DNA of 64,000 nt from Roseateles toxinivorans (GTDB lineage: Bacteria; Pseudomonadota; Gammaproteobacteria; Burkholderiales; Burkholderiaceae_C): the NCBI RefSeq assembly GCF_004362525.1, contig NZ_SNXS01000003.1, positions 434,001 to 498,000 on the forward strand, given 5' to 3'. Under the pieces are notes generated by a model. That model was not told where the DNA came from and searched no databases. It saw nothing but the letters and a program-made list of their open reading frames with translations. Below, in pieces: positions 34,130-37,999 of this stretch. Each line of letters begins with the position of its first letter. Position 1 is the first letter of the stretch. Both the position numbers and the translations under genes were made by a program.

Positions 34130-34186
34130 CCCCGATTTCCCACCCTCTGTCTTTTCTTCAAGCGAATGAACTCTTCGAGGTTGACG

Positions 34187-35641
34187 ATGAACGCTATACC
34201 CGCAACGGATCTGCGCCGCTGGGTGCTGACCCTGTCCACCGGCCTGCTGCTGGGCACCGCCCTGGTGTTGACACCTGGCACCGGCCACGCCCAGGGCAAG
34301 GAGCTGCCCGACTTCACCGAGCTGGTGGAGCGCTCCGGCCCGGCGGTGGTCAACATCCGCACCGTGGAACGCGTGCGCGCCAATGCGCGCGGCCTGCCCG
34401 AGATGGATGAGCAGATGCAGGAGTTCTTCCGCCGCTTCGGCATTCCGGTGCCGAATCAGCGCCGCGGCCAGCCGCGCAATGACGAAGACCTGCCGCAGCG
34501 CCGCGGCGTTGGCTCGGGCTTCATCATCAGCGCCGACGGCTTTGTGATGACCAATGCCCATGTGGTGGACGGCGCCGACGAAGTCATCGTCACGATGACC
34601 GACAAGCGCGAGTTCAAGGCCAAGCTGATCGGCGCCGATGCGCGCACCGATGTGGCGGTGGTCAAGATCGAGGGCGCCGGCCTGCCGCTGGTGAAGATAG
34701 GCGACGCCAACCGGCTCAAGGTCGGCGAATGGGTGATCGCCATAGGCTCGCCCTTCAACCTCGACAACACAGTGACCGCCGGCATCGTCAGCGCCAAGGC
34801 GCGCGACACCGGCGAGCTGCTGCCCTTCATTCAGACCGACGTGGCCATCAACCCCGGTAACTCGGGCGGTCCGCTGATCAATATGCGTGGCGAGGTGGTG
34901 GGCATCAACTCGCAGATCTACAGCCAGTCGGGTGGCTATATGGGCATCTCGTTCGCGATCCCTATCGACGAGGCGATGCGCGTGGCCGATTCGCTGCGCA
35001 GCAATGGCCGCGTCGTGCGCGGCCGCATCGGCGTGGGCATCGGTGACGTCAGCAAGGAAGTGGCCGAGGCCATAGGTCTGGGCAAGCCCACCGGTGCAGC
35101 GGTCAGCACCGTCGAGGCCGGCAGCCCGGCCGACAAGGGCGGCGTCGAGGGCGGCGACATCATCACCAAGGTGGATGGCAAGACGATTGAGAAGTCGGGC
35201 GATCTGCGCCGCCTGATCAGCGGCATCAAGCCCGGCACGAAAACCACCCTGCAGGTGTTCCGCCGTGGCGCCTACAAGGAGCTGAGCGTCACCGTGGCCG
35301 AGATGGAGGCCGAGCAGCGCCCGCGCCGCCAGGCCGAAGGCGACAACAAGGCGACGCCTGCCCAGCCCAGCGTACTGGGCTTGACCGTGGCTGACCTGAC
35401 GGATGCCCAACGCAAGGACCTGAAGCTCAAGATCGGTGTGCGCGTCGAGAGCGTTGAAGGCGCTGCCGCGCGTGCCGGCCTGCGCGAGGGCGACATCATC
35501 CTGGCCGTGGACAACACCGAGATTGCCAATGCCAAGCAGTTCGGCGCCGTGGTCACCAAGCTCGAAAAGGCCAAGGTCGTGACGATGCAGGTGCGGCGCG
35601 AGAACGCGGTCAGCTTTGTGCTGGTGAAGCCGGCCAAATAG
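34187..35641 (+). CDS. mucD: Periplasmic Do-like serine protease MucD/DegP
   Basis: A 484-residue trypsin-like periplasmic protease with two PDZ domains. The signal peptide covers about residues 1-36 (cut after GHAQ). Catalytic triad: His125 (TNAHVV), Asp155 (DARTDVAVV), Ser226 (GNSGGPL). PDZ1 spans about 265-355 (RGRIGVGIGDVSKEV, GAAVSTVEAGSPADKGGVEGGDII) and PDZ2 about 385-480 (GVRVESVEGAAARAGLREGDIIL). The ATG at 34187 has a GAGG Shine-Dalgarno 6 bp upstream and is preferred to ATG 34166. It degrades misfolded envelope proteins and modulates the sigma-E pathway. Terminator follows at 35648. Confidence 0.94.
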   Translation: MNAIPATDLRRWVLTLSTGLLLGTALVLTPGTGHAQGKELPDFTELVERSGPAVVNIRTVERVRANARGLPEMDEQMQEFFRRFGIPVPNQRRGQPRNDEDLPQRRGVGSGFIISADGFVMTNAHVVDGADEVIVTMTDKREFKAKLIGADARTDVAVVKIEGAGLPLVKIGDANRLKVGEWVIAIGSPFNLDNTVTAGIVSAKARDTGELLPFIQTDVAINPGNSGGPLINMRGEVVGINSQIYSQSGGYMGISFAIPIDEAMRVADSLRSNGRVVRGRIGVGIGDVSKEVAEAIGLGKPTGAAVSTVEAGSPADKGGVEGGDIITKVDGKTIEKSGDLRRLISGIKPGTKTTLQVFRRGAYKELSVTVAEMEAEQRPRRQAEGDNKATPAQPSVLGLTVADLTDAQRKDLKLKIGVRVESVEGAAARAGLREGDIILAVDNTEIANAKQFGAVVTKLEKAKVVTMQVRRENAVSFVLVKPAK

Positions 35642-35647
35642 GCGGCT

Positions 35648-35699
35648 CCGGCGGCGCCGGTCGGGTTGAAGCTCAACCTACTGCGCCGCCGGGTCTTTT
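35648..35699 (+). terminator. Terminator after mucD
   Basis: CCGGCGGCGC (35648-35657) pairs perfectly with GCGCCGCCGG (35683-35692). The loop holds a second small hairpin, GGTTGA/TCAACC. The tail is GTCTTTTC, a short U tract, so termination strength is moderate. Confidence 0.7.
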
Positions 35700-35904
35700 C
35701 ACGATGCGAATTCTCGCTAGTATATTTACGACCGCGTGACGCTGGCCATGTTGACAACTTGAGCACGGAAGTGGTCGGTGATCACTCACATAGGGAGGGC
35801 CAGCGGCGGGATTGAACTGCTTCTCGGATAGAATGCGGGCCGCCAAGCCCGACTTTTGACGCCTGCACGGTCGGATGCCCCTGGCGCCCCAGGCTATCCC
35901 CAAG

Positions 35905-35939
35905 TCATCCACAACGACATGTTGATAACTTGTGAATAA
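35905..35939 (+). promoter_or_regulatory. Cluster of three DnaA-box-like 9-mers
   Basis: Within 35 bp are TCATCCACA (35905-35913), TGTTGATAA (35920-35928) and TGTGAATAA (35931-35939). Compared with the consensus TTATCCACA or its complement TGTGGATAA, each has one mismatch. DnaA binding is a possibility; an origin is unlikely because dnaA, dnaN, gidA or parAB are absent nearby. Confidence 0.4.
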
Positions 35940-36009
35940 CTTTGGTGTTGGTGGGCTGCAACGTCGGGTTTTCCGGCCTCGCCACGGTTTTCAGACTGGC
36001 GGTTTTGGC

Positions 36010-36015
36010 TACAAT
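36010..36015 (+). promoter_or_regulatory. -10 element of candidate small RNA
   Basis: TACAAT, one mismatch from TATAAT, with TTTTCA 16 bp upstream (35988-35993) matching 4 of 6 positions of the -35 consensus. Predicted start about 36021-36023. Confidence 0.45.
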
Positions 36016-36021
36016 GAAGGC

Positions 36022-36085
36022 CCAACAAGCAGTTGCCAAAAGTTTTGTTGGAAGGCGCGTCACCGATTCGACGTGCCTTTTTTTT
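36022..36085 (+). ncRNA. Candidate small RNA upstream of lepA (about 64 nt)
   Basis: A compact unit: the TACAAT promoter, then a 5' stem CCAACAA (36022-36028) with TTGTTGG (36045-36051) around a 16-nt loop, then a rho-independent terminator (36054-36085). The two hairpins together fill nearly the whole predicted transcript, as in short bacterial sRNAs; the loop GCAGTTGCCAAAAGTT is A/U-rich and could pair with targets. It could alternatively be an attenuated leader of lepA. I know of no described homologue, and cannot search for one here. Confidence 0.45.
36054..36085 (+). terminator. Rho-independent terminator 105 bp before lepA
   Basis: GGCGCGTC (36054-36061) pairs with GACGTGCC (36070-36077), 8 pairs with one G-U, an 8-nt loop and eight consecutive T residues. 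A textbook terminator on the lepA strand. Confidence 0.88.
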
Positions 36086-36094
36086 ACCCTCAGC

Positions 36095-36159
36095 ATGACC
36101 CTTCGGGTCATCACATCGCTCAGCGATTGAGAGCTTGCGCTGCAACGGCTACGCCGTTG
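36095..36159 (+). repeat. Three consecutive perfect hairpins ahead of lepA
   Basis: ATGACCC TTC GGGTCAT (36095-36111), ATCGC TCA GCGAT (36115-36127) and CAACGGC TAC GCCGTTG (36143-36159). Each has a 3-nt loop and perfectly matched arms. They lie between the terminator and the lepA start and would fold in the lepA mRNA leader. Confidence 0.85.
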
Positions 36160-36190
36160 TGTCTCCCGACTCGGCGCAAAAAAGATCAGC

Positions 36191-37998
<1,808 letters not shown>

Positions 37999-37999
<1 letters not shown>

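Follow-up and report, generated by a model that had tools for sequence, protein, structure and literature searches.

A conserved small RNA gene in the lepA leader, predicted to pair with the start of SWIB-domain mRNA

Immediately upstream of lepA, the window (the whole 64,000-nucleotide stretch of DNA analysed here) carries a predicted small RNA gene that is conserved, real and absent from Rfam 15. We consider its product to be probably a leader-derived sRNA that ends before lepA and pairs in trans with start codons, chiefly that of the mRNA for a SWIB-domain protein. In the proposed mechanism an RNA of ~65 nt would start at a promoter of its own within the lepA leader and stop at an intrinsic terminator short of lepA, with the loop of its 5′ hairpin displaying GCAGUUGCC(AU). 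The loop would pair over 10–11 nt with AUGGCAACUGC, comprising the start codon and codons 2–4 of the SWIB mRNA, and a few other mRNAs with the same beginning would be paired likewise. Since the start codon is a classical place for translational repression, we infer repression as the direction of the effect: pairing in the cell would block ribosome binding and lower the translation of nucleoid-type proteins. The features of the locus, in window coordinates, are as follows.

34166–35641, forward strand: upstream neighbouring gene (ORF of 491 aa), presumably a degP/mucD-like serine protease gene.
35988–36015, forward strand: putative sRNA promoter, with a −35-like TTTTCA at 35988–35993 and a −10 TACAAT at 36010–36015.
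36021–36085, forward strand: predicted small RNA gene of ~65 nt, from its fold, covariance model matches and covariation.
36022–36051, forward strand: 5′ hairpin, with stem CCAACAA/TTGTTGG and a 16-nt loop.
36029–36038, forward strand: loop seed GCAGUUGCCA, antisense to UGGCAACUGC at the start of the SWIB gene.
36052–36085, forward strand: intrinsic terminator, with a 10-bp stem, an 8-nt loop and T8.
36191–37999, forward strand: downstream gene (ORF of 602 aa; tblastn finds its orthologues downstream of the element), taken to be lepA (EF4), as in the preliminary description.

The near-consensus −10, the 7-bp stem and the T8 terminator of the preliminary description can all be read directly at 36010–36085, and form a compact unit (~65 nt, there given as ~64 nt) with 105 nt between T8 and the lepA ATG at 36191. 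The −10 matches five of six consensus positions and precedes the hairpin in 27 of 28 oriented relatives, while the −35 is weak; with a spacer of 16, both boxes together give a 9/12 match in the promoter scan, and we infer a 5′ end ~6–8 nt past the −10. The arms of the 5′ stem lie at 36022–36028 and 36045–36051 around the loop at 36029–36044, and those of the terminator are GGCGCGTC (36054–36061) and GACGTGCC (36070–36077), extended by A-T pairs and followed by T8 at 36078–36085. The RNA from 36021 to 36087 folds with −25.3 kcal/mol (z = −4.66), and none of 200 shuffles was equally stable; the terminator scan of the promoter tool did not list the element's hairpin, though folding shows it. The view that the unit has no obvious protein-coding function held up: an ATG frame over the −10, open in the window's clade, is broken by a stop in the other clade (by eye), and the same ATG lies upstream of the expected transcription start. 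A CsrA-type GGA motif between the hairpins was likewise set aside, as it is missing from the second clade (by eye).

No Rfam 15 family matches in the window at the gathering threshold, and at E ≤ 10 over 35640–36200 no match overlapped 36010–36085. BLASTN of a 116-nt query against 60 genomes gave matches at E 1.3e-5 or better in 28, the window's own included (loci L001–L028), with lepA downstream in all 28 and degP upstream in 27. A covariance model built from 13 sequences matched 133 of 150 family genomes at E ≤ 0.1 and 124 at E ≤ 2e-7, the latter spanning ~115 genera, and conservation over 124 genomes is far beyond chance; on inspection the weaker matches in G014 and G120 adjoin lepA, and G010 holds a degenerate copy. 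The family, taken from the names of matching members to be Comamonadaceae plus the Rubrivivax/Roseateles group, is a large one whose bacteria come from soil and water. Named genomes, scanned for the exact pattern, gave at least 119 stretches, the matches listed including Acidovorax, Variovorax, Comamonas, Delftia, Polaromonas, Rhodoferax, Limnohabitans, Rubrivivax, Roseateles, Ideonella and Aquabacterium. At strict-motif loci lepA starts 66–260 nt downstream on the same strand in 193 of 200, where some genomes are counted twice and the other seven loci lie near the end of the stored stretch.

Six second matches to the model (one each in G000, G001, G105 and G148, two in G101) were inspected and rejected as further copies, being mainly terminator and none beside lepA. 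When 300 genomes of the order were searched with stricter filters for occurrences outside the family, nine family genomes scored at least 71.8 bits and the others at most 35.9 among the matches listed; none of 21 outside-family matches inspected (L227–L247) lay beside a lepA start, L235 having a 36% partial match to an internal portion of LepA only. Plasmid records gave no match for 35640–36200. At one of the inspected loci, L241 (G278, from another family of the order), the loop-like GCAGTTGGCAATGATTGTTG stands directly 5′ of a terminator; no lepA was found in that locus.

Structural alignment of 100 matches (93 distinct sequences) was made through the model for both clades, because a joint MAFFT alignment mis-set the 3′ arm. 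Compensatory substitutions, on which the preliminary description had made its proposal depend, were sought in both stems and found: 97.8% of alignment cells pair, both sides change in 8 of 16 pairs and none of 500 shuffles reached any of five covariation measures, in an alignment whose fit to the model favours covariation and in which the 3′ arm of stem 1 is misplaced in a few rows. Cells changed on both sides belong mostly to two pairs, one in stem 2 and one in stem 1. For the loop the earlier label of A/U-rich is misleading, as there is more to it: it bears GCAGUUGCC in 97 of the 100 copies (the exceptions are L064, L067 and L075, and L272 beyond this set), followed by AU in 55 of the 97 and by AA in 34. 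The final T run is 6–8 long in 95 of 100 copies. A long U tail on an intrinsic terminator, a feature of Hfq-dependent trans-acting sRNAs, is present, and the U8 tail of the window's copy suggests that Hfq may help.

GCAGUUGCC followed by AU is exactly antisense to AUGGCAACUGC; in G000, the genome of the window, the match is 10 nt, not 11. A SWIB domain is found in 148 of 150 family genomes. The gene starts exactly with ATGGCAACTGC in 127 of the 142 whose starts were fetched (G010, G064, G081, G118, G134 and G137 were left out, and in G021, one of the 142, the contig stops before the SWIB start), the start being chosen by a script that preferred ATG then GC with a Shine-Dalgarno and did not require the full motif. 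Where the model finds the hairpin, 118 of 122 SWIB starts are exact, against 7 of 17 where it does not (Fisher 3e-8, in a table without G021, G127 and G129); one of the four misses in the hairpin group is G120, which has a changed loop, and G093 combines a model match with a SWIB target that is not exact. Within the hairpin genomes the wobble base of codon 2 is A in 119 of 122 and that of codon 3 is T in 120 of 122. The third base of codon 4, just outside the match, is G in 61, A in 55, T in 4 and C in 2, and the wobble of codon 7 is mixed, so that by this reading of the codons synonymous constraint stops at the boundary of the match. For comparison, 292 other ORFs drawn from the loci around lepA, many of them orthologous to one another, have Ala at codon 2 in 12 cases, 3 of them GCA, and Thr at codon 3 in 25 cases, none of them ACT, and inside these ORFs GCA accounts for 8.3% of Ala and ACT for 4.8% of Thr. 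The duplex between an 18-nt loop piece and the genome's own SWIB start, calculated for the cut-out loop with accessibility ignored, has −19.2 kcal/mol in G000 (10 bp), −20.5 kcal/mol in G009 (11 bp) and −20.4 kcal/mol in G005 (11 bp), and in each of the three genomes none of 500 shuffled targets (simple letter shuffles) was as strong.

The loop complement TGGCAACTGC, counted with the RNA's own site, occurs at 17 sites in G000 against 13 for the reversed control, the corresponding counts being 18/23 in G001, 13/5 in G009, 18/4 in G005, 51/21 in G020 and 20/12 in G116; it is not clearly over-represented in the window's genome and its congener, and is over-represented in the four others. All non-self sites were read in three genomes (16 in G000, 17 in G005 and 12 in G009), a real-looking start being defined as a Shine-Dalgarno plus exactly ATG GCA ACT GC; other ATG, GTG or TTG sites were not counted (e.g. 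L385, within another frame, and L560, without a Shine-Dalgarno). Real-looking starts of a SWIB gene and of a gene for an Ala/Lys/Pro-repeat protein were present in all three genomes, with further ones for a hemerythrin-domain protein in G000, an IclR regulator in G005 and a transporter-like protein (named by eye) in G009; in the window's genome UGGCAACUGC thus also opens the repeat gene and the hemerythrin-domain gene. Pfam recognised SWIB (PF02201) in L388, L358 and L369, hemerythrin in L391 and IclR in L363, and gave no match for the repeat protein of G000 (L390). The repeat gene, which is histone-H1-like, starts with ATGGCAACTGC in the three genomes read (G000:C3:273048 L390, G005 L559 and G009 L567). 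It is a candidate second conserved target, and it may share an inherited N-terminus with the SWIB gene.

The preliminary description had left the choice between a stand-alone sRNA and a terminated leader attenuating the lepA operon, and the sequence supports both halves: the sRNA in the conserved candidate trans target, the conserved wobble positions and the loss of the hairpin together with the match at the SWIB start, and the terminated leader in a promoter–terminator layout before lepA that occurs beyond the range of the hairpin. Among the 24 family genomes with no or weak model matches, 21 had a LepA match and 20 a readable leader; a terminator precedes lepA in 17 of these 20, with a −10 in 12 of the 17, a −10 being counted in this and all other sets when it matched at least five of six positions and lay 8–45 nt before the terminator. 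Across the order's families a terminator lies within 200 nt upstream of lepA in 17 of 30 genomes, 14 of the 17 with a −10, while 29 genomes of the class outside the order gave six lepA-leader terminators, two with a −10. Among other terminators, taken as controls, a −10 stood before 1 of 88 in the family loci and before 2 of 15 in those of the order. The lepA ATG touches T8 in G035 and lies within 7 nt of the terminator hairpin in G055, G058 and G266, and because this leaves no room for another promoter, lepA in these four genomes must be read through the terminator. Read-through and the wider layout together argue for a cis role, which, the layout being wider than the family, is likely as well.

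In other families (e.g. L293, L299 and L305) lepA begins 5–7 nt after the terminator hairpin with no visible Shine-Dalgarno between. An alternative pairing of the stem's CAAC with GUUG in the loop seems possible by eye; both are nearly invariant, and covariation is little informative there. In B. pertussis lepA is reported to be the first gene of an operon that also holds lep, rnc, era and recO (PMC8386462).

Both functions may belong to a single history, in which an order-wide attenuator of the lepA operon gained a seed in one family and came to repress chromatin-like proteins in trans (SWIB and the Ala/Lys/Pro-repeat protein); we put this forward tentatively, as somewhat less probable than its negation. 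A terminated leader acquiring a seed would be a likely route from attenuator to trans-acting RNA, and if the dual role is true, each terminated round of lepA transcription would lower the target genes, coupling translation-factor expression to nucleoid composition. We think it unlikely that the element is purely a cis attenuator that sets or regulates transcription of the lepA operon, with a loop to which a protein or a second RNA binds so that polymerase can pass. Its strict linkage to lepA, the −10 found 15–39 nt ahead of a terminator before lepA in 14 of 17 order and 12 of 17 family genomes against 1/88 and 2/15 in the controls, and the ATG placed right after the terminator in the four genomes above would all fit such a device, but it leaves the exact SWIB antisense, the wobble conservation and the co-loss unexplained, and no clear antiterminator fold was seen by eye.

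Losses of the loop and of the SWIB target were mapped on a LepA tree of 102 genomes, 101 of them with both traits, in which 9 of 99 inner branches are strongly supported. The target is kept in 79 and lost in 2 of the genomes with the loop (the two being G075 and G149), and kept in 9 and lost in 11 of those without it, the hairpin having been sought elsewhere in genomes lacking it at lepA by the covariance model only. A loss-only reconstruction has 12 losses of the loop and 10 of the target, and 8 of these 10 fall on loop-less branches that make up 19.8% of tree length (binomial 7e-5); three of the eight share one loop-less clade, and counting them once gives 6 of 8 (~1e-3). A sign test on well-supported independent pairs, of which there were only four, was not significant. 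Outside the family a SWIB match was found in 10 of 30 order genomes, with seven readable starts, one of which (G037, of another family) is ATGGCAACTGC without a hairpin. Because the target sequence occurs in G037 and in 7 of 17 hairpin-less family genomes, it may be older than the RNA or be kept for another cause.

It is nevertheless improbable, in our judgement, that loop and SWIB start are each conserved for a reason of their own (e.g. ribosome standby or the binding of a protein) and that their match is a coincidence. In favour of this explanation, protein constraint acts on MATAKKA-type starts, the same 11 nt stand without a hairpin in the one outgroup gene just mentioned, and in the 17 hairpin-less genomes GCA and ACT remain the most frequent codons (11/17 and 12/17); against it are an exact match of 10–11 nt placed at the start codon, a synonymous constraint that ends where the match ends, and the correlated losses. 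Least credible is an ordinary terminator of the degP operon behind a chance promoter-like sequence and with no sRNA function, for although a terminator is expected after degP and the hairpin is a normal intrinsic one, few terminators elsewhere have a strong −10 immediately in front of them, as the controls show, the 5′ hairpin and loop are conserved with covariation and not needed by a terminator, and the element stays with lepA at L009 and L063, where degP was not found within ~1.5 kb.

Several further features were seen in the neighbouring sequence. Three 9-mers in a row at 35905–35939, TCATCCACA and, on the minus strand, TTATCAACA and TTATTCACA, are DnaA-box-like and lie ~70–100 nt before the sRNA promoter, with similar letters upstream in L027 and L028. 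At 35721–35805 a −10-like TATATT is followed by a perfect 8-bp inverted repeat, CGCTGGCC/GGCCAGCG, around ~50 nt; this stretch, which comes right behind degP, may give a further structured transcript. The spacer at 36086–36190 holds the palindromes ATGACCC-TTC-GGGTCAT (36095–36111) and CAACGGC-TAC-GCCGTTG (36143–36159), and close relatives have related palindromes with differing letters; a repeat element between terminator and lepA was considered and rejected, there being one full copy in the window's genome.

If our reading is true, an sRNA family missing from Rfam would be present in most of the genomes sampled from a large bacterial family, with a specific and testable target. Bacterial SWIB proteins are not known to have a regulator or a clear role, and for that reason the RNA would give a handle on these proteins. 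Among the titles and abstract openings listed for freely licensed main texts, we found no sRNA before lepA or on a bacterial SWIB gene.

The rimP-leader and greA/rnk-leader attenuators resemble the element in that the gene they lead, for a translation or transcription factor, has a terminator hairpin ahead of it across many genera (PMC2965389, whose main text has no occurrence of lepA), while the lepA-leader RNA bears an extra seed hairpin with a predicted trans target. S17/S17S of Bordetella pertussis and the bdhR1 'toxic sRNA' (RF02278), both treated in PMC11722255, are likewise short sRNAs of Burkholderiales with a conserved single-stranded seed, repression near the ribosome-binding site and a conserved terminator as described there; RF02278 does not match the element even at E ≤ 10, and S17 lies between a glycosyltransferase gene and coq7, its short form being a processed RNA (PMC11722255). 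The nearest known kind is GraL of E. coli, a greA-leader sRNA with a reported trans action on nudE mRNA and a reported cis action on greA (PMC6829880). In both cases a short RNA with an intrinsic terminator belongs to a housekeeping gene's leader, a dual role being proposed here too, and a predicted promoter and intrinsic terminator of the RNA's own likewise lie between the upstream gene and the gene that is led. Here the led gene is lepA, the lineage is another and the predicted target is SWIB, and the lepA-leader RNA has a loop seed that is nearly invariant over ~115 genera.
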